Source: Myxococcales bacterium
GTDB lineage: Bacteria; Lernaellota; Lernaellaia; Lernaellales; Lernaellaceae
Direction of reading: 5' to 3'
DNA: 50,518 nucleotides
Assembly: GCA_012517325.1 (NCBI GenBank)
Contig: JAAYVF010000097.1
Coordinates: forward strand, 1 to 50,518
Part shown: in pieces, positions 2,968 through 31,012 of the stretch
Numbering within the stretch: position 1 is the first letter of the stretch
How the letters are laid out: each line of letters starts with the position of its first letter
The notes under the pieces: generated by a model
What the model was told of the DNA's origin: nothing
The model's database searches: none
What the model saw: only the letters and a program-made list of their open reading frames with translations
Translations under genes and position numbers: made by a program

Positions 2968-3672
2968 TTATTTCGCGTTCGGGAACGCTTTCTTCACTTC
3001 TTCCATCTTCACGCGCTTGCCGGTGTTGTCGGCGTTTTCGTTGCGCATTTTCATCATGGCGAGGGTCTTTTTGGCCACCCACCAACGGGTCAACGAGGTG
3101 CCTTCGACGATGTTGTAAACGCCGGCGTCGATGTCGTTGCCCTGGACCTGAATTTTCTCGGAGCCTTCGTTCTTGTAGGTGACTTTCACGACCTTCATCT
3201 CTTTGAAGCAGAAGATTTTGAATTCTTTGGCCTGCTTTTCGGGCACGTTGTTCAGAATTTCCTGCTCGTCATAGCTGAAATAGTCGAAATCGCCCTTTTT
3301 CAACATGATCTTGTTGGCGCCGTCCATGATCTCGTAGCCGCCTTCAACCGGTTTGCCGGTGACGGTCTTGCCTTCGACCTTCATTGTGAAGGAGTGCATC
3401 GGCTGGTTGGTCGAACGGACGAATTCCATTTCGACGGTCTTGTTGCCTTTTTTCTCGAACAGGGTGCGGGTGGTTTTGATCGCCGTGGTGCCGTCGACGG
3501 TCACCTTGGTGTTTACGTCGTGCTGCCAGCCGGTCGCTTCGCCGGCCTTGTTGCTGTACAGCCACCACCAATTGCCGCCGTCCAGTTCCGAGAGCGGGCC
3601 CGCGAACGCCAGGGTGGCAAAACCCAAAACCATCGCGAACGCCATTACCATCGTCAATTTGGACAAACGCAT
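2968..3672 (-). CDS. Secreted protein, possibly LolA-like fold
   Basis: The 234-residue product has a clear Sec signal peptide (MRLSKLTMVMAFAMVLGFATLAFA, given here only as residues 1-24) with cleavage predicted after AFA. The mature part is Lys-rich, with beta-strand patterning (TVEMEFVRS, KVEGKTVTGK, KVVKVTYKN) and a WWW cluster near its start. This resembles small periplasmic lipoprotein-sorting or LolA/LolB-like proteins, but no diagnostic motif is visible. I chose the start at 3672 because AAGGAGG stands 6 nt before it; the longer frame upstream has no such site. It is a single gene with its own terminator downstream. The function is not known. Confidence 0.72.
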   Translation of the reverse strand: MRLSKLTMVMAFAMVLGFATLAFAGPLSELDGGNWWWLYSNKAGEATGWQHDVNTKVTVDGTTAIKTTRTLFEKKGNKTVEMEFVRSTNQPMHSFTMKVEGKTVTGKPVEGGYEIMDGANKIMLKKGDFDYFSYDEQEILNNVPEKQAKEFKIFCFKEMKVVKVTYKNEGSEKIQVQGNDIDAGVYNIVEGTSLTRWWVAKKTLAMMKMRNENADNTGKRVKMEEVKKAFPNAK

Positions 3673-17145: not shown

Positions 17146-18933
17146 TCAGTTCCACGAATTGTGTTTCGCTTCCGGGTTGAACTCGTCCGGGAACTCGCGG
17201 TGCATATAACTGACGATGAACTGGTCGACCTCGCCGGCGGTGGTCAATTGCAGGGCGCTGGTGGCCAGCGCGCGCGCCTGATCGGTCGTGAACCGGCTGA
17301 GCAGCCGTTTCACGTGCAGGGCCTTGCTCGGCGTCATCGACAGCTCGTCGAGGCCCAGGCCCAGCAGCGCCATGACGTATTCCGGCTGGCCGGCCATTTC
17401 GCCGCACATCGCCACCGGAATGTCGGCGTTGTGGCCGGCGATGACGACCTGCAGAATCGCCCGCAGGATCGACGGGTGCAGCGGGTGGAACAGGTAGTTG
17501 ACGTGTTCGTTGCTGCGGTCCACGGCCAGCGTGTATTGGATCAGATCGTTGGTGCCGATCGAGAAGAAATTGACTTCCTTGGCCAGCAGGTCGGCGATCC
17601 AGACAGCGGCGGGCGTTTCGATCATGATGCCGATTTCGATGTTTTCGTCGAAGGGAATGCCCTCGCGACGCAGCTCGTCCTTGGCCTTGGCCAACAGCGC
17701 CTTGGCCTGTCGCAACTCGTCCATGCCGCTGATCATCGGGAACATGATGCGAGTCTTGCCGTGCGCGCTGGCGCGCAGGATCGCCCGCAACTGGGTGTGA
17801 AAGACGTCGGGGTGGGCCAGGCAGAGCCGGATGGCGCGCAGGCCCATCGCGGGGTTGGCCTCGTTCTGGCAATCGGCCGCCGCGAAACTGACCTTGTCGC
17901 CGCCCAGGTCGATCGTGCGGATGGTGGTGACGCCGCGCGCACCGAGTTTTTCAATCACGCCGCGGTACACGTCGTACTGCGCCATTTCGTCCGGCAGGTT
18001 CGCCGAAAAGAGGAACAGGAATTCGGTCCGGAACAGGCCGATGCGTTCCACGCCGTTGGTGCGCATGATCTCCAACTCGCTGGGCAATTCGATGTTGGCG
18101 GCGAGCACGACCGGCACGCGATCGGCGGTTTGGGCGGGGAGGTCGCGAATCTTCCGGAGGTCTTCCTCGAAGCGCTTGTGTTGCCGCCGGCGCGTGTCGA
18201 AATCGGTGATCAGTTCCATCGACGGCCGCAGGTAAACCTTGCCTTCGAAGCCGTCGACGATGATCAGGTCGCCGGTTTTCACTTCTGCGGTCACCGCGTC
18301 CAGACCGACGACCGTGGGGATCGTCAGCGCGCGCGCCAGAATCGCCGTGTGGCTGGTGGTGCCGCCGAGGTCGGTGACGATGCCCAGGATTTTGTCGCGG
18401 TTGATTTGCGCCAGATCGGCCGGCGAAAGGTCGTGCGCGACGAGCACGACCGGGTCGGTGATGCCTTCGAGGCCCGATGAACTGACCCCCATCAGGTTCA
18501 TGACCAACCGGCGTTCGACGTATTCGAAATCGCGCCGCCGCTCGCGTAGGTAGGGGTCCTCGACGTGATCGAACAGATTGGTCACCTCGGCGATGATCTG
18601 GGTGACCGCCCATTCGGCGTTGATCGAAAGATCCTGGATGCGCTGGCGGAGGCGGTGGAAGAATTCCGGATCCTGGTACAGGCTCAAGTGGGCTTCGATG
18701 ATCTGTTTGTGCTCGTCGAGTTGCAGCTTGCCCGAGGCTTCGACCAATTGGTGCTGCGAGAGGAGGATCGCCGAGTTCAGGCGGGTGATTTCCTGGTCGA
18801 TTTCGCTGGGCGCCAGCTTGTGGTGCGGCACCCGGATGTTGGGATGGTCGTAGTGATAGGCGCGGCCCAGCGCGATGCCGGGCGCGCCGGAGGCGCCGGT
18901 CATTTCCAGCACGTGTTCGTTGTTTTTAACCAA
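17146..18933 (-). CDS. ptsI: Phosphoenolpyruvate-protein phosphotransferase (Enzyme I)
   Basis: A 595-residue EI, which autophosphorylates from PEP and passes phosphate to HPr. The active His195 lies in GGTTSHTAILAR; the PEP-binding barrel follows, with GLFRTEFLF, MFPMIS and the Cys of VAMCGEMAG. The length is normal. It is the last gene of the lptC-to-ptsI minus-strand run, 5 nt after the HPr gene. As no EIIB/EIIC sugar permease is nearby, its likely use is regulatory phosphorylation through the two EIIA proteins in the same operon. Confidence 0.96.
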   Translation of the reverse strand: MVKNNEHVLEMTGASGAPGIALGRAYHYDHPNIRVPHHKLAPSEIDQEITRLNSAILLSQHQLVEASGKLQLDEHKQIIEAHLSLYQDPEFFHRLRQRIQDLSINAEWAVTQIIAEVTNLFDHVEDPYLRERRRDFEYVERRLVMNLMGVSSSGLEGITDPVVLVAHDLSPADLAQINRDKILGIVTDLGGTTSHTAILARALTIPTVVGLDAVTAEVKTGDLIIVDGFEGKVYLRPSMELITDFDTRRRQHKRFEEDLRKIRDLPAQTADRVPVVLAANIELPSELEIMRTNGVERIGLFRTEFLFLFSANLPDEMAQYDVYRGVIEKLGARGVTTIRTIDLGGDKVSFAAADCQNEANPAMGLRAIRLCLAHPDVFHTQLRAILRASAHGKTRIMFPMISGMDELRQAKALLAKAKDELRREGIPFDENIEIGIMIETPAAVWIADLLAKEVNFFSIGTNDLIQYTLAVDRSNEHVNYLFHPLHPSILRAILQVVIAGHNADIPVAMCGEMAGQPEYVMALLGLGLDELSMTPSKALHVKRLLSRFTTDQARALATSALQLTTAGEVDQFIVSYMHREFPDEFNPEAKHNSWN

Positions 18934-18938
18934 CGCCG

Positions 18939-19220
18939 TTAATCCTCTTCAAACTTGTTGCGGAACAGCTTTTCCAATTCCACGGCGGCGCGATAGGCGT
19001 CGGGGCCCGTGGTGCGGAGTTTCAAAACGCTGCCCGGCGGGGCGATCAACTGGGTCAGGCTCATGATGCTTTTCGCATTGGCTTCCCGCCCGTCGAAGAA
19101 GATCGTCGCGTCACATTGAAAATCGTTCAGCAATTTGACGATTTTGCTGGCGACGCGCAGATGCAGACCGGCCTGGTTGATCACCGTCAACTCTCGTTCC
19201 ACGAACATGCGTTCATCCAT
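18939..19220 (-). CDS. ptsH: HPr phosphocarrier protein
   Basis: A 93-residue HPr. The phosphorylated His20 sits in NQAGLHLRVAS, and Ser51 (AKSIMSL) is where HPr kinase acts in the family. The N-terminus is about five residues longer than usual; a second Met at residue 5 is an alternative start. It overlaps the end of the upstream EIIA gene by 8 nt, suggesting coupled translation. With hprK present two genes further upstream, both His and Ser phosphorylation are likely. Confidence 0.94.
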   Translation of the reverse strand: MDERMFVERELTVINQAGLHLRVASKIVKLLNDFQCDATIFFDGREANAKSIMSLTQLIAPPGSVLKLRTTGPDAYRAAVELEKLFRNKFEED

Positions 19221-19617
19221 TCCGCAGATATTCGCTCGCCAGGCGGATGCTGCTGCGCCCGATTTCGGCCAGTTGCTGGCTCAGTTCCCGCAGGGATTTG
19301 CCTTCGCGCGAATACACCATGTCGACCAACATGGGAAGATTGAAACCGCTGACGACTTCCACCTTGTCTTCCTTCAGGAAGGAAAGGGCAATGTTGCTCG
19401 GCGTGCCGCCGAACATGTCGGTAAACACCATGACGCCATGGCCGGCGTTGACTTCCTTGATCGCCGCCTCGATGCGCTCGCGCACCTCGTCCGGTTTTTC
19501 CTGACCGGTGAGCGAGACGCTGCTCACCCCTTGCAGCGGGGAGCCGACGATCAACGAGGCCGTCTTGAGGATTTCTCCGCTCAAATTGCCGTGCGCGACG
19601 ATCACTACTCCGACCAT
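19213..19617 (-). CDS. PTS EIIA component, mannose/fructose type
   Basis: A 134-residue EIIA(Man)-fold protein: MVGVVIVAHGNLSGE places the phosphorylatable His at position 9, and DMFGGTPSN is the family's second signature. It is a free-standing EIIA with no EIIB, EIIC or EIID. In related bacteria such lone EIIA(Man) proteins sit between rapZ and ptsH exactly as here, and they are thought to be regulatory. It overlaps HPr by 8 nt. Confidence 0.93.
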   Translation of the reverse strand: MVGVVIVAHGNLSGEILKTASLIVGSPLQGVSSVSLTGQEKPDEVRERIEAAIKEVNAGHGVMVFTDMFGGTPSNIALSFLKEDKVEVVSGFNLPMLVDMVYSREGKSLRELSQQLAEIGRSSIRLASEYLRNG

Positions 19618-19631
19618 GATTGCCTACCTGT

Positions 19632-20498
19632 CTATTTTTTGACGTCCCGATGCTGAACCGTGACGATCATTCCCTGATGCTTCAATTGCCGGGCGACGTT
19701 TTCGGTGATGGCGACGGACCGATGCTTGCCGCCGGTACACCCGATCGCCAGCGTTAGATAGCTCTTTCCTTCGCGTTGGTAAAGCGGGAGCAGGAACGAG
19801 AGCAAATTAAAAAACTTTTCCAGAAACGAATGGGAGATGTCGTTTTCCAGCACGTACTTCGCGACGTTCTCGTCCAGACCCGAGAACGGCCGCAATTCCT
19901 CGATGAAGAAGGGATTGGGCAGAAACCGCACGTCCATCACCAGATCGGCGTCGCCCGGCAGGCCGAATTTAAAGCCGAAGCTGACCAGGCGCATGACCAT
20001 GGTCGGCTGCAAGTTCCCGGCGGCGAACCGCTCCTGGATCAGGCTCCGCAGTTCGTGCGGCGTGAGGGCGGAGGTGTCCACCACCCAATCGGCGCTTTTT
20101 TTCAGCTCGCTCAGGCTTTCGCGTTCCTTGCCGATGCCCTCCAGAACCGAACCGCCGCTCGCCTGCGGATGGCTGCGGCGCGTTTCGGAAAAACGCTGGA
20201 TGAGGATGCGGTCATCAGCCTCGAGAAAGACGATTTCGAGGTGATAGGCGTCATCGCGCAGCCGCTGGAACGTTTCGGCGGCGCGACCGGGGAAATTCGG
20301 ATCGCGGGTATCCATGACCACGGCGATCCGGCTGATGTCGCCCGGCCGGCCGAGCGTCGTGAGCTGGATCAGTTTTTCCAGCAGTTCGACGGGCAGGTTG
20401 TCGATGCAGAAATAGCCCAGGTCTTCCAGGGCCTTGCTGGCGATCGATTTGCCGCTGCCGCTCAAGCCGCTGATGATGACAAGGCGGGTGTCTCTCAT
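19632..20498 (-). CDS. rapZ: RNase adapter/nucleotide-binding protein RapZ
   Basis: A 288-residue member of the YvcJ/RapZ family. The Walker A motif GLSGSGKS is at 11-18; the C-terminal domain carries GCTGGKHRSV, typical of RapZ. In enterobacteria RapZ binds small RNAs and guides RNase E; the role elsewhere is less clear. The start at 20498 overlaps the hprK stop by 4 nt (ATGA) and has GGAGAGG upstream. A longer in-frame extension into hprK is not real. Confidence 0.95.
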   Translation of the reverse strand: MRDTRLVIISGLSGSGKSIASKALEDLGYFCIDNLPVELLEKLIQLTTLGRPGDISRIAVVMDTRDPNFPGRAAETFQRLRDDAYHLEIVFLEADDRILIQRFSETRRSHPQASGGSVLEGIGKERESLSELKKSADWVVDTSALTPHELRSLIQERFAAGNLQPTMVMRLVSFGFKFGLPGDADLVMDVRFLPNPFFIEELRPFSGLDENVAKYVLENDISHSFLEKFFNLLSFLLPLYQREGKSYLTLAIGCTGGKHRSVAITENVARQLKHQGMIVTVQHRDVKK

Positions 20499-21454
20499 TC
20501 GGTTTCCTCTCCGGGTAAGCCCGCTTCCTGGCTCAACTTGGAGAGCAACTGTTGTTGAAATTCCTTCGCCGCGTTGTAGCCTTCCAGTTTGAGCAACTGA
20601 TTGCGCGCCGCCACTTCGATGATCGTCGAGAGGTTGCGGCCGGGCCGCACCGGCAGCACGATCAGGGGTAGTTCCACTCCAAGGATGGTGTATTTCTTGT
20701 CGTCCAGCCCGATGCGGTCGTAATCGATGTCCTTCTCCCAGGTGACCAGCTTGACGACGAGTTGGACCTTCTTCCGGTCGCGGATGGCGCTGATACCGAA
20801 CAATTCCTTGATGTTGATGATGCCCAGGCCGCGGATTTCCATGTGGTATTTGATGATTTCCGGCCCGCGGCCGTAAATGGCGGTCGGGCCCTGGCGCACC
20901 AATTCCACCGTGTCGTCGGCCACCAGGCGGTGACCGCGGGCGATCAGATCGATCGCGCATTCGCTCTTGCCGATGCCGCTGTCGCCCAAGAGCAGAACGC
21001 CCACGCCGAAGGTGTCGAGCAACACGCCGTGCAGGCTGGCGCTCTTGGCGAAATGAGCCTCGAGCAGCTTGGTCAGCCGTTCGATCAAGGCCTGCGTCGG
21101 CAGCGCGGTGCGCAGCACCGGGGTTTGGGTCCGCTCGGCATGGGCGAGAAAGATCGGCGGCACGGGCAGGTCGCGCGAGATGATGCAGCAGGCCACGTGC
21201 TGGTCGAAATATTTTTCGCAGACGCGCTCCTGGTCTTCCGCCGGCAGGCCGGCCAGATACGACATTTCGGTCTGGCCGAACAACTGAACGCGGTTGCGCG
21301 CGACGAAGGAAACGTAGCCGGTCATCGCCAGGCCGGATTTCTGCACGTAAGGGGTGCGGATTTTGTTGTCCAGGCCCGCTTCGGAAGTCAGCAGATCCAG
21401 CGATAGGTCGATCCGCCGATGCTCCAGAATTTCACGGACGGTGATGGCCGACAC
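20495..21454 (-). CDS. hprK: HPr kinase/phosphorylase
   Basis: A 319-residue HprK/P that phosphorylates and dephosphorylates the serine of HPr. The P-loop GDSGIGKS is at 157-164, and the signature region MEIRGLGIINIKELFG is present. The start codon is GTG with GGAGAG just before it, inside the end of ptsN. The gene begins 2 nt after the ptsN stop and overlaps rapZ by 4 nt. Confidence 0.96.
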   Translation of the reverse strand: MSAITVREILEHRRIDLSLDLLTSEAGLDNKIRTPYVQKSGLAMTGYVSFVARNRVQLFGQTEMSYLAGLPAEDQERVCEKYFDQHVACCIISRDLPVPPIFLAHAERTQTPVLRTALPTQALIERLTKLLEAHFAKSASLHGVLLDTFGVGVLLLGDSGIGKSECAIDLIARGHRLVADDTVELVRQGPTAIYGRGPEIIKYHMEIRGLGIINIKELFGISAIRDRKKVQLVVKLVTWEKDIDYDRIGLDDKKYTILGVELPLIVLPVRPGRNLSTIIEVAARNQLLKLEGYNAAKEFQQQLLSKLSQEAGLPGEETE

Positions 21455-21456
21455 TT

Positions 21457-21913
21457 CTACTCTCCGTCGGTCGCGCCTAACAGCGCGGGCAATTGTTCGG
21501 GCGCCGCTTGCAGCAGTCGTTCGCGATTGGCCGGGTCGTGCAGCAACCGCGCCACCCGTTCCAACGCGGCCAGGTAATCAGTGATCTTTCCCTCCGGCGC
21601 GACCAGTACGAAAAAAAAGCCGCGTCGGTTCGCCGTCCGGATCGTCGAAATCGATGCCGGCCGGGCTGCGGCCGAAGACCGCGTAAATTCGATGCAGCCC
21701 ACTGACTTTGGCGTGCGGGATCGCCACCCCGTCGCCGATACCAGTGCTGCCGAGTTGTTCCCGCGCCAGCAGCGCCGCAAACAGCCGGTCTTCCTCCACC
21801 TCGGGCGCGGACCAGGCCAGTCGCTGCGTCAACTCCCGGAGTACGCTCGTTTTGTCCGCGGCGCGCAACTCCGGGATGACGGCGCGCGGATCCAGAAATG
21901 ATGTCAAATCCAA
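21457..21913 (-). pseudogene. ptsN: PTS EIIA(Ntr), interrupted by a frameshift
   Basis: Two overlapping frames together give one normal EIIA(Ntr) of about 151 residues. The first part (from ATG 21913) carries the active His67 in GDGVAIPHAKV and runs to GEPTRLFF. The second part resumes with VLVAPEGKITDYLAALERVA in the other frame and ends in a normal C-terminus. The change of frame falls at a run of eight T on the coding strand (21611-21618); seven T would restore one continuous frame. The cause may be a sequencing error, a real mutation or slippage during expression. The stop at 21457 leaves 2 nt before hprK. Confidence 0.88.
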
Positions 21914-21918
21914 GGGGG

Positions 21919-22476
21919 TTATTCCCCTTGTGTCTGGATCAGGCCGAAGTCGCCGCTTTTACGGCGGTAGAGGACGTTGATCCGCTTACTGTCGACCTCG
22001 GTGAAGACCAGCAATTCGGACGCCGGGTTGGCGTCCATCCAAACGACCGCTTCCTGGACGCCGATGGGTTTGGGCATCGCGCCCTCGGTTACGGCGATCC
22101 GTTTCATCCATTCCGGCTGGTGCGCGGCCTCCTCGTCGATGTCCTCCACTTTTTGCACAAAAGCGTCATGTTCCGGCTTGGAACGGCCCTTTTTGGAGCG
22201 GGTCTTGTCCTTCTGTTTTTTGATCTGGCGCTCCAACTTCGTCAGGGCGTTGTCGATTGAGCTATAAATGTCGTCGGTTTCCTCGGTGCAGTTGATGCTG
22301 CTGCGGCCCGCGGTCAAAGTCATTTCGGCGATGTTGCGGTGCTTTTCGATCGACAAAACGATGTTGGCTTCGATCGGTTCGTCGAGGTAGCGCTTTACCT
22401 TCGCCAGTTTGCGTTCGGCGTATTCCTTGATTGCCTCGGTCGGTTCCATGTGCCGGAAGGTCACGCTGATTCTCAT
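21919..22476 (-). CDS. hpf: Ribosome hibernation promoting factor, long form
   Basis: A 185-residue long HPF. The N-terminal domain (MRISVTFRHMEPTEAIKEY, with AERKLAKVKRYL) binds the 30S subunit. After a charged linker (about 95-125) the C-terminal dimerisation domain begins near MPKPIGVQEAVVWMD and ends GDFGLIQ. Long forms make 100S ribosome dimers on their own. It lies between rpoN and ptsN, its usual place. Confidence 0.94.
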   Translation of the reverse strand: MRISVTFRHMEPTEAIKEYAERKLAKVKRYLDEPIEANIVLSIEKHRNIAEMTLTAGRSSINCTEETDDIYSSIDNALTKLERQIKKQKDKTRSKKGRSKPEHDAFVQKVEDIDEEAAHQPEWMKRIAVTEGAMPKPIGVQEAVVWMDANPASELLVFTEVDSKRINVLYRRKSGDFGLIQTQGE

Positions 22477-22497: not shown

Positions 22498-23928
22498 CTA
22501 ATACAGGCGCTTGCGTTTGTTAGATGGCAAAATGCCCAGCATCTCGCGGTATTTGGTTACCGTGCGCCGCGCGATGTTGAGCCCCTCACGCTCGGATAAC
22601 AGTTGAACGATCTTTTGGTCCGAATATGGTTTGCGCGAATTTTCCTCCGCGATAATTTTCGTGATCATGTTCTTGACGCTCTCGGAGGCGACCGAGCCGC
22701 CGTCGTCGGAGCCGATGCCGCTGTTGAAGAAGTATTTGAGCTCGAAAATGCCCTGCGGGGTATGCACGTATTTGTTGGTGGTGACGCGGCTGACGGTCGA
22801 TTCGTGCATGCCGATGTCGTCGGCGACGTCGCGCAGGATCAGCGGCCGCAGGAAATTGATGCCCTTATCCAGGAACTCGCGTTGGAATTTGACGATGCTT
22901 TCGGTGACGCGGTAGATCGTCCGCTGGCGTTGGTGAATCGAGCGGATCAGCCAGACGGCGCTGCGCAGCTTGTCCTGGATGTAGTCGTGCTCGATTTTGT
23001 TCTTCGTGCCGCCGCCCTGCAAAATCTGCTTGTAGTAATTGCTGATTTTCAGCTTCGGCAGGCCGTCGTCGTTCTGTGTGATGACGTATTCGTCGCCGAC
23101 CTTCTGGATGTAGATGTCGGGAATGATGTACTGGGTCCGCTCGCTGCCGAAGGGACGGCCCGGCTTCGGTTCCAGTTGCGAGATGATGTGCAGCCGCGCC
23201 AGGACGTCTTCCACGGAACAGGACAAGGTCTTGGCGATCTTTTTATAGTCGCGCCGCTCCAGGTCGGGCAGATGATGGGTGATGATCGCCTCGATCAACG
23301 GTTCCTCGATTTCCAGGGCGCGCACCTGCAGCATCAGGCACTCGACCAGGTCGCGCGCGCCCACGCCGGTCGGATCGAAGGATTGGATGTGTTCGAGAAC
23401 CCATTCGGCATTCTCGTATTCCAGATTTTCCTTCTCGCAGATTTCCGCCAGCGGCGTTGCCAGGTATCCATCGTCATTAATATAACCAATTAAAACGGCG
23501 CCGACGGCTTTGGTTTCCGGATCCAGGTCGGCCAACTGCAATTGCCATTCGAGATGGGTCGGCAAATCCTCGCGCCGCACCTGGACCGCCTCGGCCGCTT
23601 CGCGGTCCTCGTCCTCGAAACCGCCGCCGCCCTGATAATCGGACACGCTGCGGCGGGATAGGTAAGTCGCCCAGTCGATATTTTGGTCGGGACCGGTTTC
23701 GGCGGCTTCGACATCGGATTTGATTTCCGGGCCGGAATCGGGCAACTCGCGCGGGTTTTCCACGGCCTCCGGTAATTCTTCAAGTACTGGATTTTCAACC
23801 ATTTCCTGCTGGATGTGGTCGACCATTTCGAGGTGGTTGAGTTGCAGCAATTTGATGGCCTGTTGCAATTGCGGCGTCATGATGAGCTGCTGCGAGAGCC
23901 GCAAATTCATCTTCATTTCGAGGGCCAT
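22498..23928 (-). CDS. rpoN: RNA polymerase sigma-54 factor
   Basis: A 476-residue sigma-54. Region I opens MALEMKMNLRLSQQLIMTPQLQQ in pieces, the Gln/Leu-rich activator-responsive part. An acidic region II follows, then the core-binding domain and, near the end, the RpoN box ARRTVTKYRE that reads the -24 element. The start with MALEMK fits the family; GAGGT is 11-12 nt upstream. It follows lptB by 17 nt. The operon's own promoter region contains a -24/-12 type sequence. Confidence 0.97.
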   Translation of the reverse strand: MALEMKMNLRLSQQLIMTPQLQQAIKLLQLNHLEMVDHIQQEMVENPVLEELPEAVENPRELPDSGPEIKSDVEAAETGPDQNIDWATYLSRRSVSDYQGGGGFEDEDREAAEAVQVRREDLPTHLEWQLQLADLDPETKAVGAVLIGYINDDGYLATPLAEICEKENLEYENAEWVLEHIQSFDPTGVGARDLVECLMLQVRALEIEEPLIEAIITHHLPDLERRDYKKIAKTLSCSVEDVLARLHIISQLEPKPGRPFGSERTQYIIPDIYIQKVGDEYVITQNDDGLPKLKISNYYKQILQGGGTKNKIEHDYIQDKLRSAVWLIRSIHQRQRTIYRVTESIVKFQREFLDKGINFLRPLILRDVADDIGMHESTVSRVTTNKYVHTPQGIFELKYFFNSGIGSDDGGSVASESVKNMITKIIAEENSRKPYSDQKIVQLLSEREGLNIARRTVTKYREMLGILPSNKRKRLY

Positions 23929-23945: not shown

Positions 23946-24677
23946 TCAAAGCCGGAACTTGTCGCCCAGGTAGATTTCCCGCGCCTGGGGGCTGTTGGCG
24001 ATCGTTTGCGGATCGCCTTTTTCCAGTATTTTCCCTTGGTGAATAATATAAGCCCGATCGCAGATGGTTAACGTTTCGCGCACATTGTGATCGGTGATCA
24101 GTACGCCGATGCCGCGGTCGCGAAGCTGGGCCACGATGTTCTGGATTTCGTTCACTGCGATCGGATCGATGCCGGCGAACGGCTCGTCCAGCAGCAGGAA
24201 TCGGGGCTGCGTCACCAGCGCCCGGCTGATTTCCACGCGCCGCCGCTCGCCGCCCGACAGCGAATAGGCCTTGTTTTTCCGCAAATGCGTGATGCCCAGA
24301 TCGCCCAGCAGGGATTCCAGCCGGTTGGCGCGCTCTTCCTTGGAAAGGTCCATGGTTTCGAGAATCGCCAGGATGTTTTCCTCGACGGTCAACTTGCGAA
24401 AAACCGACGGTTCCTGCGCCAGGTAGCTGATGCCGTGGCGCGCGCGGCGATACATCGGCATATCCGTGAGATCCAGCTCGCCCAGCAGAACCCGCCCTTC
24501 ATCGGGGCGGTACAAACCGACCACCATGTAGAAATTGGTCGTTTTCCCGGCGCCGTTCGGTCCCAACAGGCCGACGACCTCGCCCTGGCGCACCTCGATG
24601 CTGCAATGATCCACCACCGCTCGTTTGTGGAACGATTTGCAGAGGTTTTCGGTGTGCAAGACGAGTCGTTCCGGCAT
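23946..24677 (-). CDS. lptB: LPS export ABC transporter ATP-binding protein
   Basis: A 243-residue ABC ATPase of the LptB2FG complex that drives lipopolysaccharide from the inner membrane. Walker A GPNGAGKT is at 39-46, the signature LSGGERRR follows, and Walker B is [13 protein letters not shown]. It comes directly after lptA (3-nt gap), and AGGAACG precedes its start. Its identity as LptB rather than another ABC protein is secured by the lptC-lptA-lptB order. Confidence 0.96.
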
Positions 24678-24680
24678 CGG

Positions 24681-25283
24681 TTATCGTTCCTGATCTTTCT
24701 GATCGGATCCTTTTTGTTTGTCTTGAAGTTTCTTCGCCTCGCCGGGATTGATCGTCACGGTGACCCGGCCCGTGGAAGCGCCCAGAATTTCGATCTGCCG
24801 GCTCGGCAGGTGAATCACGATGGCCGACCCGCGCAGGGCGTTGGAACCCTGGGTGACCAGCGGATTGCCGCTCAGGGCGATGGTCTGGGCTTCGTTGTCG
24901 AACTCGGCCCGGTCGCAGGTGGCGCGGCGGTCTTCCTGCACTAGTTGCACGCGTCCCAGGGCGATCAGCCGCCGGATCTGGCCGCCGGCCTCGGGCAAGC
25001 CGCCCAGCGGTTCGCTTGGCTCATTACCCGTTTCTTTTTTGGCCGCCGGTTGATAGTGGATCAGCAGGATGTCGCAATTGAGCACCGATTTGTCCTGCAC
25101 GCCGACGACGTTGCCCTCGAAGCGGATGACCTGACTGCCGTTGTCGGCTTCCAGCCGATCGGCCTGGATGTGAATCGGCTTGTTGGGGTCGAAATCCGGC
25201 GGCATGACGCCGTTGTTCTGGCTGAAGGCCGCGGCCGGCCACAACCCGAGAAACAGCAACGCGATGAAGGCCCATTTTTTCAT
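24681..25283 (-). CDS. lptA: LPS transport periplasmic protein LptA
   Basis: A 200-residue protein. A signal peptide (MKKWAFIALLFLGLWPAAA) precedes an OstA-like beta-jellyroll with paired strands such as KPIHIQADRLEADNGSQ and VIRFEGNVVG. The very C-terminus is charged (KLQDKQKGSDQKDQER). The start at 25283 overlaps the lptC stop (ATGA). LptA forms the periplasmic bridge that carries LPS to the outer membrane. Confidence 0.9.
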   Translation of the reverse strand: MKKWAFIALLFLGLWPAAAFSQNNGVMPPDFDPNKPIHIQADRLEADNGSQVIRFEGNVVGVQDKSVLNCDILLIHYQPAAKKETGNEPSEPLGGLPEAGGQIRRLIALGRVQLVQEDRRATCDRAEFDNEAQTIALSGNPLVTQGSNALRGSAIVIHLPSRQIEILGASTGRVTVTINPGEAKKLQDKQKGSDQKDQER

Positions 25284-25837
25284 GGCTTGCTCGCCGCCCA
25301 CCAATCGGCTTCCACGTTTTGCTTCAGCCGGATTTTTTGCTCGTCCAGGTCCAACTCCATGCCGACCCCCTTCACGCTGAAAAAGGGCCCGGTCAACAAC
25401 ACTGCCTGATCGGTCGTCGCTCGCCGGGGATCGGCGGTGAAATCCAGCCGCGCGGTGCGGAAAACCATCCCGTCGTCGGTTTCGCCATGGACATCGCCTT
25501 CCATCCGACCTTGGCGGGATTGCACGTCAACATTGGCGCGTTCGCCCTTGATCTCGATCCGCCGGCCGTTTTCCCAGAGCAGGGCGTCCACCTGGTTGAA
25601 TCGCGCCTCATTCGCCACGGCAAAGTATTGCGCTTGCGCGGCTCGCACCTGCCACCGCATTTGGCCGTTCATCGTTCGAGTATAGATGAAGTCGTCCATT
25701 TTACCGAAGGGGGATTCTTCCTTGTTGTCGCCGCGCGGCAGGTCGGTCTTGTCCGGCATCGAGGCCCACCAAACCAGACCGGCGGCGATCAGCAATCCGA
25801 CTAGAATCCCAAGGTGTTTGGCCGGGTGATTTTTCAT
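25280..25837 (-). CDS. lptC: LPS export protein LptC
   Basis: A 185-residue bitopic membrane protein. One N-terminal helix (about residues 9-25) anchors a periplasmic jellyroll with the LptC pattern (FIYTRTMNGQMRWQVRAAQAQYF, in part, then VDVQSRQGRMEGDV). It is the first gene of the operon. No Shine-Dalgarno precedes the ATG, and predicted transcript starts fall only about 4-6 nt before it, so it may be translated from a leaderless mRNA. No internal start would keep the anchor. Confidence 0.9.
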   Translation of the reverse strand: MKNHPAKHLGILVGLLIAAGLVWWASMPDKTDLPRGDNKEESPFGKMDDFIYTRTMNGQMRWQVRAAQAQYFAVANEARFNQVDALLWENGRRIEIKGERANVDVQSRQGRMEGDVHGETDDGMVFRTARLDFTADPRRATTDQAVLLTGPFFSVKGVGMELDLDEQKIRLKQNVEADWWAASKP

Positions 25838-25847
25838 TGGCGCGTCT

Positions 25848-25869
25848 ATTATAGCATATTCTGTGCCAA
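25848..25869 (-). promoter_or_regulatory. Overlapping sigma-54 and extended -10 promoter of the lpt-rpoN-pts operon
   Basis: Read on the minus strand, TTGGCAC-AGAAT-ATGCT (25869-25853) matches the sigma-54 consensus TTGGCAC-N5-TTGCW except for one base in the -12 part; the GG and GC doublets are exactly 10 nt apart. Overlapping its end, TGC-TATAAT (25848-25853 for the hexamer) is an extended -10 for sigma-70. Both would start transcription at about 25841-25842, a few bases before the lptC ATG. Confidence 0.6.
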
Positions 25870-25987: not shown

Positions 25988-28054
25988 TTGGGCGACAACC
26001 CTCGGGCGACACGTATTATCCTTTGGACACTGGGCCTGACGGTGATCTTCCGCCTGTTGTTGCCGCGTCTTTTCGGCCTGCTGGACGGCGACAGCGTCAG
26101 CCTGTTCATCGACGCCGAAAAACTACTGCGGACCGGCGTCCCAAGCATCACATCCACCCTGCAGGTTTATCTGATTTCCCTGGCCTATCGGATCGGCGGC
26201 ATGAAACTGACCGTGGCGCGTTACGTGCCGCTGCTCGCCGGTTGGGGAACGATGTTGTTGCTCTATCTGCAAGGCGACGACCCGAAGGAACGAACGGGCA
26301 TCTGGGCGGCGCTGCTTTACGGCGTTTTGCCGATTTCGGTTTTTTTCAGCGTCAGCGAGTTGCCTTACGGCACCATGACCTTTCTGGCGGTGCTGGCGCT
26401 TTGGTCCCTGGTGCAAGCTCAAGGGAAGGGGATGGCCTGGCTGGGGATCGTGGCCGGGCTCGCGCTCGGCGGCGCATTTTTATGCAAGACCTTCGCCGCG
26501 GTTTTCGTCCTGCCGGTTTTTTATTCGCTGGTTTCCCATTTACGAAACGAACGGGAGCGGCGGGAGAAGCGCTGGACGCCGGACTGTCTGGCCCTGGCGG
26601 TTTGGGCCTTGATCGTCGGCGGAGTGATCGTCTGGCGATTACCGGTTTTCGGCTGGTCGATCTTCAACGATTACCCGACCGATTGGCGATTCGACCTGGC
26701 GACCCAGATCTGGTCGGCGCGTTGGTTCGACCTGATCAATCTGCATTCGCTGGCGCTGCCGATCCTGGCGCCCGGCGTGGTCCTGGCGATTCTCCGCCGC
26801 AACGCCGAGCCGTTCGTCCGGCTGAGCGTCTGGCTGATCGCGGCCGACGTGGCCGTCTATCTGTTCAACCCGGTCAATCATTTCCCGCGGGTTCTGCTGC
26901 CGGCGATGCCTTTCCTGGCTTACATCGCCGCGGTAGAAATGACACACGCCGTGGAGGCCAAACGCTTTCGGGTATTGGCATCCTGGGCTTTGATGGCTTT
27001 TCTGCTGCTGGTGGTCCGGCTTTCCTGGCCGGATTGGTGGCTGAACGCGCGGCCGTGGACGCTCGTTGCGGAAACGCTGGCCGGCCTCGCGGTATTAGCG
27101 ATCCTGGCGGTTCTTTGGCCGCGCCGGGTGGAGATCGACGGCGAATCGGCGGTGGCTTTTCTCCTGGTCGCGACGAGCATTTTCGGTTTTACGGCAGCGT
27201 ACCGCGATCTGGATCGGGTCGAGCGGTTGTCGATGGCCCGGATCGAGGCGGTGCGCTATGCGGATGTCACCAGCGGCCTGCTGGGCGGCGGTGACGTCGT
27301 TTACCTGCTGATGCGCGATCTGCCGAACGTTTCGATTCTTACCGATCTGCCGCGTGAACGGCTGCTGCAAATGCTGCGCGAAGGATTGCCGGCGACCATG
27401 CGCGCGCTGGGGATGACGACGGCGATCGAGGATCGCGCCGACACCGAGGGCATTCTGGCCATGGTGAAAAACCTGGCCGCGGAAGAGGGCATCGCCCTGC
27501 CGCCGGACTATTCGCCCTTTACCAAGCTGGCGGCCGATCCGCTGACCGAACGGCTGTTCGACAACGGCCTGTTCAGTTTGTACCGCCTGACCGACGTTCC
27601 GCCCGCCACGACCGCCGCCTGGCCCGAATGGAGCCGCGTGGAACCGGAACTGGATCGCTCGGGCCTGGGACTGATTCAACCGCTGCCGGCGCGATTGGCG
27701 GTGACGCAGCGTCCCGGACCGCGGACGCCGGGCGGCGCCGTCGATCGCTTGATTACCGCCGAATTGACCGTCTGGCCTGATCGCCGGAGGTTTTTCGAGA
27801 TCCGCGTGCGCGCCTTGAATCAAGCCAATGAAGCGCTCTGGGAGCAACAGGAGGTCGTCGCCTTTCCCGCCGCGCCCGATTCGCCGGGGGTCCATTGCCG
27901 GATCATCGCGGTCGATCGCGAGCCGGTCGCGGGCCAGGAGACCGTCATCGTGCCCAAGGGCATTCGCGATGTCGCGACCATGGAAATCAGCGTGCAGCCG
28001 GAAGAGAGCGACCAGCCTTTGATCGCCTTGGTGCGCACACCCTCGTGGTGGTAG
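25988..28054 (+). CDS. GT-C type membrane glycosyltransferase (PMT/ArnT-like) 1
   Basis: A 688-residue polytopic protein. A first helix precedes an extracytoplasmic loop with Asp residues (LLDGDSVSLFID), then about ten more helices up to residue 400, and a soluble C-terminal domain of some 280 residues. The layout is that of GT39-like enzymes that use polyprenyl-phosphate sugars. The start is TTG at 25988 with GGAG 8 nt before it. It heads a tight four-gene operon. The acceptor is unknown. Confidence 0.75.
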   Translation: MGDNPRATRIILWTLGLTVIFRLLLPRLFGLLDGDSVSLFIDAEKLLRTGVPSITSTLQVYLISLAYRIGGMKLTVARYVPLLAGWGTMLLLYLQGDDPKERTGIWAALLYGVLPISVFFSVSELPYGTMTFLAVLALWSLVQAQGKGMAWLGIVAGLALGGAFLCKTFAAVFVLPVFYSLVSHLRNERERREKRWTPDCLALAVWALIVGGVIVWRLPVFGWSIFNDYPTDWRFDLATQIWSARWFDLINLHSLALPILAPGVVLAILRRNAEPFVRLSVWLIAADVAVYLFNPVNHFPRVLLPAMPFLAYIAAVEMTHAVEAKRFRVLASWALMAFLLLVVRLSWPDWWLNARPWTLVAETLAGLAVLAILAVLWPRRVEIDGESAVAFLLVATSIFGFTAAYRDLDRVERLSMARIEAVRYADVTSGLLGGGDVVYLLMRDLPNVSILTDLPRERLLQMLREGLPATMRALGMTTAIEDRADTEGILAMVKNLAAEEGIALPPDYSPFTKLAADPLTERLFDNGLFSLYRLTDVPPATTAAWPEWSRVEPELDRSGLGLIQPLPARLAVTQRPGPRTPGGAVDRLITAELTVWPDRRRFFEIRVRALNQANEALWEQQEVVAFPAAPDSPGVHCRIIAVDREPVAGQETVIVPKGIRDVATMEISVQPEESDQPLIALVRTPSWW

Positions 28055-28064
28055 GATCGACGCC

Positions 28065-29558
28065 ATGCGCCGACTGTCCTTTTCCTGCTTCTGGTATCCG
28101 CTGCTCCTGTTCGGACTGGCGTTGGCGGCGCGTTACGTCTTTTTCCGCTACTTCGGAAACGAATTTTCCCATGAAGGCGAGAGCTACAGCAAAATCAACC
28201 TCGTGCGCGTCTGGCTCGATCAGGGTAAGCCGTATCCGGACCCCAATTTCGGGCCGCTGCACACCTGGCTGATTTACCTGCTGGTCCGGATCGGCGGCGA
28301 TTGGATTCTGCCGGTGCGCGTTTTCGGGCTGCTGGTCGGTTCGCTGACCGTGCCGATCTATTATTTCTTCCTGCGCGCGGCGACGGACGAACGAACGGCG
28401 ATCCTCGCCGCCCTCCTGTTCGCCTTGTTCCCGACTCATCTGCGCGCCAGCCCGACCGGCTTGGCGGAAGTGCCGTACCTGTTTTTTTTCGTCGGCGGCC
28501 TCTGGATGTATTTTCTGGCCTGGAATCGGCGCGACCGCCGGACGTGGGTCTATTTCTCACTGGCGGCCCTGGGTTGGACCGCCGCCGGAATGCTGCGCTT
28601 CGAGGCGTGGCTGTATTACCCGGTGCTGTGCCTGGCGCTGCTGGGGCGGCGCCGCATCGGCGAGGCCTTCGGCTTCGGGGCGATGCTGGCGGTCTTTCCC
28701 CTGATCCACATGGGGATCTCCTGGCACGATTTCGGCAACCCGACCAATTTCGCCGCGACCAGCGCGTCGTCGTTCCTGCAGTACATGCCCGACATGCCGT
28801 GGGCGGACAAGGCGTTCGGTTGGTTTTATTCGCTCGAACTGGGCATGGGCTGGCCGGCGGCGATTCTGGCGGCGGCCGGCCTGGTGTCGGCGTTGATCCG
28901 GCGGCGTTTTCTACTGCCGGCCGCGCTCCTGATTTTCCCGCTTGCCCTGCTGGAATACAAAGCGATCAGCAATACGCTGGACCCCAGCCTGGAGCGATAC
29001 ATCGTCGGCCTGGCGGCGCTGCTCTACGCCTTCGCCGGATTTGCCCTGTCGTCCTTCGGAGAGCATTTGCAGCGGATTCGGACGCCGCTCCGGCACGCGG
29101 TGACGGTCGCCCTGGCGGCCATCCTGGTATTTCAGGTGGTGCATGCCTGGAACGAGGCGGTGGAGAACCGCTATCCGGCTGACGTCAGGCAGGTGGTCGA
29201 TTGGCTGCGGCGTTACACGGGCCCGGCGGATCGGGTGCTGCCAGATCAGCGGTTTCATCCGTACGTCGAACTGGAAAGCCGGCTGCCGATCGGCGCTTTC
29301 GTCAATTTGCAATGGCGGCCGGATCGCAAGGCGCTCGATCCGCAGGCTTTCGCGCTGCTCCTGGCCGAGACGCCGCCGACGATCGTCATTTTCGACTACC
29401 TGCTGGCCGATACGCCGTACGTCAATTCCAATCTCGACGTTTTTCCGGTGCCGCGCGACGCGCCGGAATACGAGCAGTACGGCTTGCGGCTGACCAAGGT
29501 TTTCGCGGCGGGCGATTTCGTGATCTACCGTTCGACGAAGAAGGAAGCGGACTCGTGA
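28065..29558 (+). CDS. GT-C type membrane glycosyltransferase (PMT-like) 2
   Basis: A 497-residue polytopic protein. After the first helix, the loop FSHEGESYSKINL holds the acidic residues expected of the GT-C catalytic site, followed by PDPNFGPLHTWLIYLL. About ten membrane helices and a short periplasmic tail (from about 380) follow. The PD-NFGPLHT motif is shared with the next gene, so the two look like a tandem duplication. The next gene overlaps its stop by 4 nt (GTGA). Confidence 0.78.
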   Translation: MRRLSFSCFWYPLLLFGLALAARYVFFRYFGNEFSHEGESYSKINLVRVWLDQGKPYPDPNFGPLHTWLIYLLVRIGGDWILPVRVFGLLVGSLTVPIYYFFLRAATDERTAILAALLFALFPTHLRASPTGLAEVPYLFFFVGGLWMYFLAWNRRDRRTWVYFSLAALGWTAAGMLRFEAWLYYPVLCLALLGRRRIGEAFGFGAMLAVFPLIHMGISWHDFGNPTNFAATSASSFLQYMPDMPWADKAFGWFYSLELGMGWPAAILAAAGLVSALIRRRFLLPAALLIFPLALLEYKAISNTLDPSLERYIVGLAALLYAFAGFALSSFGEHLQRIRTPLRHAVTVALAAILVFQVVHAWNEAVENRYPADVRQVVDWLRRYTGPADRVLPDQRFHPYVELESRLPIGAFVNLQWRPDRKALDPQAFALLLAETPPTIVIFDYLLADTPYVNSNLDVFPVPRDAPEYEQYGLRLTKVFAAGDFVIYRSTKKEADS

Positions 29559-31012
29559 AGCGGCGCGCCGAAATTTTCGCCCTGGCGCTGATTCTGGCGA
29601 CGGCCTTGGGAGTGCGGCTCTATTTCCTGACCGCCGGTCCCAACGCGCTCTCCGACGAGTACGAGGGCTTCAGCAAACTGCATCTCATGCTGCAATGGGC
29701 CGATCAGCCGTCTCATTACCCGGACGTCAATTTCGGCCCCTTGCACACAGTGCTGTTATGGCTGCCTTATCGCTTGACGGGCCACGTGGTTTTTCCCGGC
29801 CGCTTGCTGACTTTGTTGTTCGGCCTGCTGCTTTTCCTGCCGGCCTATCGGCTGATCGGCCGCCATTGCGGGCCGGTCGCGGCACTGGCGGGCGCGTGGC
29901 TGCTGGCGTGGCTCTATCCGCTGGCGGCGGCCAGCGTCGTGACGTTGGCCGAGGTGCCGTTTGTCTTCTTCACTCTGCTGGCGATCGATCTGTTGGACGA
30001 TTTCACCGCCGATCCGGCGGGCAAACGGCCGCTGTTGTTCGGGGCGGCGCTGGCGGCGACTGCGGCGGCGGCCTGTCGCTTCGAGGGCTGGCCGCTCCTG
30101 CCGCTTTACGCGGTTTATCTGGGCTGCGGCCGGCGGCGGCGCGAGTTCTGGTGGTTCGCCGCGGCATTGGCCGTTTTTCCGTTGGCGCACCTGGTTGTTT
30201 CCTACCGCGATCACGGCGATCCGCTCGGCTTCATCAAGATCAGCGCCGCCGTGACGGCGATCAACGCGGCTCGCGTGCCGCTGGCTGATCGCGTCTGGCT
30301 GTTGCCCAAGGCTTTGACGGAGACGATCGGGTGGCCGGGCCTGGTATTGGGCGCGGCCGGCGCGTCGGCGGCGCTGTGGCGGCGAAAGATGATCTTGCCG
30401 TTGGCGGCGCTGGTCGTGCAGTTCGCCCTGCTGGAAAAGAAAAGCATCGACGCCTCGCTGGATCCGACCTTGCTGCGCTACACCACGCTGCTGGGCGCGT
30501 TGCTGGCCCTGTTCGTCGGGGTTTTGCCGGCGGCGGGGCGCTGGTCGACGGACCGCGGCCGGCGGCTGGCGGTCGTGGCGGTGTTCGTCCTGGCCGGTTG
30601 GGCGGCGTGGGCCACCCAGCAGAATGCGCTGCGGGAATCGCATCGCCTGGCGCAATCTTTCGAGGTGTTCGAACTGACGGCCCGTCTGCGCGCCGAGTTA
30701 TCGCCCGACGACCGCGTCCTGCTGGGCGACGAATACCATCCGGTGATCGTCGTGGATTCCGAGCGCTCCTGGCGGTGCTTCCGGCGGCTGGTGGTCACGA
30801 ACGAGGGGCATGATGTGCCGCCGCAGATTTCCCTCGCGGACGTCGCGGCCTGGGCGCCGACGGCGATTTTGCTCGATCGCACGGAAGCGAAATTTCAAAA
30901 CGCGTTGCGGATCGGCGACGAACCGGAAATCAATCTGGGCGGCCGGACCTACCGACGTCTCTGGCAGATCAAACGCTGGTCATTTTTCCGCGTGATGGAG
31001 GGCGGGGCGTGA
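29555..31012 (+). CDS. GT-C type membrane glycosyltransferase (PMT-like) 3
   Basis: A 485-residue protein starting at GTG 29555, inside the end of the previous gene, with GGAAG upstream. It parallels glycosyltransferase 2: acidic loop LSDEYEGFSKLHL, then YPDVNFGPLHTVLLWLPYRL, then many Leu/Ala-rich helices and a periplasmic tail (VLLGDEYHPVIVVDSE). The two are clear paralogues, while the first gene of the operon is more distant. The stop overlaps the next GTG start by 4 nt. Confidence 0.8.
   Translation: MKRRAEIFALALILATALGVRLYFLTAGPNALSDEYEGFSKLHLMLQWADQPSHYPDVNFGPLHTVLLWLPYRLTGHVVFPGRLLTLLFGLLLFLPAYRLIGRHCGPVAALAGAWLLAWLYPLAAASVVTLAEVPFVFFTLLAIDLLDDFTADPAGKRPLLFGAALAATAAAACRFEGWPLLPLYAVYLGCGRRRREFWWFAAALAVFPLAHLVVSYRDHGDPLGFIKISAAVTAINAARVPLADRVWLLPKALTETIGWPGLVLGAAGASAALWRRKMILPLAALVVQFALLEKKSIDASLDPTLLRYTTLLGALLALFVGVLPAAGRWSTDRGRRLAVVAVFVLAGWAAWATQQNALRESHRLAQSFEVFELTARLRAELSPDDRVLLGDEYHPVIVVDSERSWRCFRRLVVTNEGHDVPPQISLADVAAWAPTAILLDRTEAKFQNALRIGDEPEINLGGRTYRRLWQIKRWSFFRVMEGGA

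Follow-up and report, generated by a model that had tools for sequence, protein, structure and literature searches.

Across many Gram-negative bacteria, the gene for sigma-54, rpoN, has lpt and pts genes as its neighbours. In Rhizobium leguminosarum, rpoN is under negative autoregulation. The prxS-rpoN2 genes of rhizobia are driven by NifA and RpoN (PMC3538637). Autoregulation of rpoN is also indicated by computational enrichment across many classes, and the rpoN gene of G. sulfurreducens is listed in the sigma-54 regulon (PMC12316311). For the Geobacter-type rpoN cluster, tight control of RpoN has been inferred (PMC2725144).

Promoters shared by sigma-54 and sigma-70 are described for the small RNA genes glmY and glmZ. 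In the Enterobacteriaceae, the two kinds of promoter overlap perfectly at these genes (Reichenbach 2009 and Goepel 2011, as cited in PMC6075780 and PMC3844500). In E. coli, sigma-54 binding at the overlapping promoter of glmY represses the sigma-70 promoter (PMC6075780). In Salmonella, the sigma-54 and housekeeping holoenzymes compete at glmY and glmZ (PMC3844500). The sigma-54 holoenzyme is inactive when it binds a promoter (PMC4591121).

The locus described here is the head of an lpt-rpoN-pts operon in a member of the Lernaellaia. The window is the whole stretch of DNA that was analysed (50,518 nucleotides). As at glmY and glmZ, a sigma-54 -24/-12 and sigma-70 elements lie on the same bases, and the target pathway of glmY and glmZ (RapZ) is also related to the cell envelope. 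The promoters there serve small RNAs, whereas the one here would serve an operon that encodes sigma-54 itself (and rapZ). Mapped QseF sites are present at glmY, but no activator sites are visible here, and the proven -35/-10 there contrasts with an extended -10 here. As at the autoregulated rpoN genes, sigma-54 is predicted to feed back on its own gene. Unlike those genes, the site here heads an lpt-rpoN-pts operon, three genes before rpoN, coincides with an extended -10 and is documented for one class-level lineage. The gene order is similar to that of the Geobacter-type cluster (ABC ATPase, rpoN, HPF, hprK). Sigma-54 autoregulation and overlapping sigma-54/sigma-70 promoters are each known; their pairing at an rpoN operon looks new.

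The rpoN operon

The predicted operon is on the minus strand and has the order lptC-lptA-lptB-rpoN-hpf-ptsN-hprK-rapZ-EIIA(Man)-HPr-EI, with the site at its head. The first gene is lptC (25280..25837; Pfam LptC, 3e-20). It is followed by lptA (24681..25304; Pfam LptD_N / LptA, 1.6e-17) and by a gene for an lptB-type ABC ATPase (23946..24677; Pfam ABC_tran, 2.6e-36), which is placed between lptA and rpoN. In rpoN (22498..23928), all three sigma-54 domains are intact (Pfam AID, CBD and DBD) and the translation contains the RpoN box ARRTVTKYRE. By their coordinates, the genes from lptC to rpoN form a compact same-strand string in which neighbours overlap or are a few bases apart. Downstream of rpoN are a long-form hibernation promoting factor gene, hpf (21919..22476; Pfam Ribosomal_S30AE and its C-terminal domain), a ptsN-like EIIA gene (21457..21913; PF00359), hprK (20495..21454; Pfam Hpr_kinase_N and _C), rapZ (19632..20492; Pfam RapZ N and C domains), EIIA-Man (19213..19617; Pfam EIIA-man, 3.5e-26), HPr (18939..19220; Pfam PTS-HPr, 3.1e-21) and PTS enzyme I (17146..18933; Pfam PEP-utilizers). 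The Pfam assignments of these eleven genes agree with the sequence-only reading, which had placed LPS export, rpoN and PTS genes in the operon.

The frame of the ptsN-like gene is broken at a run of eight T at about 21611-21618 (minus strand). Its two frames overlap, with matches to PF00359 profile positions 2-97 and 95-134, and together make up one EIIA domain. This gene is unbroken in two other genomes of the class, G001 and G002, the latter with six T. The break could reflect misassembly, a phase-variable tract or a site of slippage. Divergent from the operon is a run of PMT_2-type glycosyltransferase-like membrane proteins (25988-31012, plus strand), the first of which lies at 25988..28054 (Pfam PMT_2, 1.2e-11). 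G001 and G002 also seem to retain a homologous gene that diverges from the operon.

Sequence and position of the site

The site, TTGGCACAGAATATGCTATAAT, occupies 25869..25848 of the minus strand. In the sequence it is followed by AGACGCGCCA and then by the ATG of lptC at 25837. The -24 element TTGGCAC (25863..25869) and the -12 element TGC (25854..25856), the latter with A instead of T at -15, are those of a sigma-54 promoter. The same TGC is the TGn of an extended -10 whose sigma-70 hexamer is TATAAT (25848..25853). On this strand, TTGGCAC-N6-TGC overlaps the perfect extended -10 (TGCTATAAT), whose end is 10 nt from the start codon of lptC. The distance from GG to GC in TTGGCACAGAATATGCTATAAT is exactly 10 bases. 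The exact GG-N10-GC spacing and the overlap with a TGC-TATAAT extended -10 had both been proposed, the strand unnamed, and both hold on the minus strand.

The predicted transcription start, shared by both holoenzymes, lies at 25840..25842 (minus strand) as judged from the element positions. The -12 rule gives 25842 and the -10 rule about 25841, for a leader of approximately 3-5 nt in the window.

Compared with YTGGCAYRNNNNTTGCW, the site has one mismatch, the A for T at -15, and it is the sole such site in the window (0.52 expected). TGCTATAAT has one exact copy in the whole window. The exact pattern TTGGCACN6TGC occurs once in the window versus 0.10 expected and is present in 10 of 100 shuffles; across the window's genome it occurs 11 times versus 9 for the reversed-pattern control. 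The lptC site matches 11 of the 13 sigma-54 consensus positions in the window and 11-12 in relatives. Because the counts from the window and the genome are close to chance for this loose pattern, they are not taken as proof, and the case from the sequence alone is suggestive only.

Sigma-54 machinery in the genome

The window's genome (5.25 Mb, 134 contigs, 97% complete) contains one complete rpoN and 20 strong matches to the AAA+ domain of enhancer-binding proteins, together with two weak ones. Sigma-54 regulation is therefore expected to operate. In the genome domain search, there is no strong match to this AAA+ domain in the window's contig.

A stricter sigma-54 consensus has 19 matches in three genomes of the class versus 6 in the reversed control. 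Many other intergenic TTGGCACN6TGC sites in the class match the sigma-54 consensus. For most of these sites, the nearest downstream start, as called by a simple ORF rule, is tens of bases away. Several of the other intergenic sigma-54-like sites, such as L175 (G000:C8:55227), precede predicted membrane or secreted proteins. Such sites could be of use in outlining the sigma-54 regulon of this lineage, about which little is known.

Conservation across the class

Conservation was assessed in seven genomes of the class, each a separate genus. Identity to the window's protein is 52-71% for RpoN and 21-41% for LptC, so intergenic DNA should be saturated with change. TTGGCAC-N6-TGCTA is found immediately upstream of lptC in six of the seven genera. 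The sequences are TTGGCACAGAATATGCTATAAT in the window, TTGGCACGAATTGTGCTATAAT in G001, TTGGCACAAAACGTGCTATGAT in G002, TTGGCACGCGAAGTGCTAGGGT in G004, TTGGCACGGAATCTGCTATAAC in G005 and TTGGCACGGAAAGTGCTAACTT in G006. When these six sites are aligned, 12 of the first 18 columns are invariant. In G004, G005 and G006, the lptC site is the sole TTGGCACN6TGCTA in each genome (about 5 Mb). In G003, no site is found at lptC, which is directly behind another gene within a longer gene string.

The 100 nt upstream of the lptC sites have a gapless identity of 0.29 (29%), which is near random. The evidence for the site is strong because the same place is kept in six genera while the flanks are near random. 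Conservation of the -24/-12 in relatives had been named beforehand as a check on the site, and the result is positive: all seven bases of TTGGCAC and the TGC are invariant in the six genera of seven that carry it. A chance match with no role would fit the near-chance level of the pattern in the window and genome alone, but its recurrence at one position in six genera, amid random flanks, contradicts it, and this explanation is the barest of possibilities. TTGGCAC-N6-TGC is, with high confidence, a real sigma-54 element on these sequence comparisons.

The conserved bases could also fold into an RNA hairpin (UUGGCAC-loop-GUGCUA) within the leader of a transcript begun further upstream, where it would control lptC translation. 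There are six potential pairs, and 94% of cells are paired. However, no pair shows a compensatory change, though the surroundings are saturated with change, and two of the six sites have lost the closing pair. The site has no Rfam match, and the invariance of its primary sequence suggests sequence-specific recognition of DNA. A hairpin of this kind is very improbable.

A probable overlapping extended -10

The background set consists of 29 hand-picked other intergenic TTGGCACN6TGC sites in the class genomes, intergenic by a simple ORF rule. The lptC sites differ from this set in three ways, with Fisher p-values that overstate independence because the six lptC sites share ancestry: T at -15 is present in none of the six versus 19 of the 29 (p = 0.005), TA follows TGC in all six versus three of the 29 (p = 5e-5), and TAnnnT is present in five of the six versus none of the 29 (p = 2e-5). 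A purine is ahead of TG in five of the six lptC sites; the extended -10 consensus is TRTGn. The lptC sites differ exactly where an extended -10 requires, so the extended -10 seems to be kept on the same bases.

The -10 hexamers at the six lptC sites are TATAAT, TATAAT, TATGAT, TAGGGT, TATAAC and TAACTT, and the hexamer is poor in G004 (TAGGGT), G005 (TATAAC) and G006 (TAACTT). The best -35 matches have 3-5 of 6 bases at varying spacing, and no good -35 is common to the sites. An extended -10 may not need a -35. On this pattern, the overlapping -10 is probably a real element.

The missing T at -15 in all six lptC sites would also fit a pure sigma-70 extended -10 promoter in which another DNA-binding protein uses TTGGCAC as its operator, perhaps as an imperfect inverted repeat, TTGGCAC-N5-GTGCTAa. 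Four of the six genera have GCAC-N5-GTGC as a perfect inverted repeat. However, the repeat lacks symmetry at invariant positions (G3 versus T17) and is broken in G000 and G005. TTGGCAC-N6-TGC is also the exact sigma-54 consensus and spacing, and other intergenic sites in the class carry it too, mostly without the inverted repeat because they mostly have T at -15. An operator is thus an improbable reading. Since the extended -10 does not explain TTGGCAC, it is simplest to suppose that the same bases retain both elements. The sequence-only reading had suggested that both factors might drive the operon, and the departures of the lptC sites at -15 and in TAnnnT lend it support.

Leader and upstream region

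In five of the six genera (window, G001, G002, G004 and G005), only 14-18 nt separate the promoter's TGC from the inferred start codon of lptC, so a nearly leaderless message is predicted. With start codons inferred, the predicted leader is unusually short in these five genera (3-7 nt) and is longer only in G006.

In the 250 nt upstream, no inverted repeat or conserved block is common to the genera, so a dedicated activator site is not visible. A lineage-specific or distant one may exist.

These observations bear on a reading in which the site is an ordinary activator-dependent sigma-54 promoter, with a dedicated enhancer-binding protein, positive autoregulation and incidental TATAAT-like bases. 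The lpt genes need expression even when no activator is active, which argues against this reading, as do the lack of a conserved upstream activating site or common dyad and the absence of an enhancer-binding protein from the contig. The retention of TAnnnT in five of the six lptC sites compared with none of the 29 others is also unfavourable to it. In its favour, conservation is highest at the -24/-12 bases, the G004-G006 family has a degenerate -10 hexamer, and the genome has about 20 strong enhancer-binding-protein matches. The rpoN gene is also among the sigma-54-transcribed genes in many classes (PMC12316311). Taken with both sets of points, this reading is unlikely.

rpoN loci of other phyla

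The scan covered 80 named rpoN loci of Deltaproteobacteria, Myxococcota, Bdellovibrio relatives and Desulfobacterota. Sites matching at least 11 of 13 positions upstream of rpoN number 6 in these loci versus 6 in the reversed control. The full site is absent from 79 of the 80 deltaproteobacterial-type loci scanned. In the Geobacter-type loci scanned, there is no strong -24/-12 site upstream of rpoN.

Among the 80 loci, the full TTGGCACGTTTTGTGCTAT is found only in Desulfurivibrio (L123), upstream of lptA. In this locus (Desulfurivibrio sp. AMeS2), TTGGCACGTTTTGTGCTATCC is at 3380-3400 between divergent argB-like and lptA genes. It is about 230 nt before lptA, the head of lptA-lptB-rpoN, with a terminator-like hairpin in between; there is no Rfam match. 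It is a possible independent case. Because the scan is at control level and yields one full site, the arrangement appears to be lineage-specific with one possible parallel.

Discussion

The preferred reading is a genuine promoter on which two holoenzymes would use the same bases, with sigma-54 competing with the housekeeping polymerase and feeding back on its own operon. This reading as a whole is favoured, with reservations. Sigma-54 RNA polymerase would recognise TTGGCAC-N6-TGC, and the housekeeping polymerase would recognise the extended -10 TGnTAnnnT, in which the TGC is common to the sigma-54 element. Both holoenzymes would start at about one base, 3-5 nt before the lptC start codon. Basal expression of lpt and rpoN would come from the housekeeping polymerase. 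The sigma-54 holoenzyme would form an inactive closed complex when it lacks an enhancer-binding protein and would compete for the same DNA. Rising sigma-54 would lower transcription of its own operon because the inactive holoenzyme would compete for the shared promoter. If any of the cell's roughly 20 enhancer-binding proteins were to act at the site, the same sigma-54 complex would fire instead. That either polymerase occupies the site, where transcription starts, that the two compete and which way the feedback runs are all predictions from sequence.

With both sites on the same bases in six of seven genera, sigma-54 probably tunes its own synthesis along with the LPS export and PTS genes. 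Whether the net feedback at the rpoN operon would be negative is an evenly balanced judgement. A more specific proposal is put forward tentatively: in this class-level lineage, the shared TGC and start may serve as a sigma-54 homeostat that has no dedicated activator. Sigma-54 polymerase would then act mainly as a repressor of its own operon and would tie LPS export and PTS levels to sigma-54 abundance through a nearly leaderless message.

If true, this would be a case of sigma-54 polymerase repressing itself through occupancy of a promoter that it shares. With a conserved feedback site in front of the operon, expression of envelope and PTS genes would be directly linked to sigma-54 abundance.
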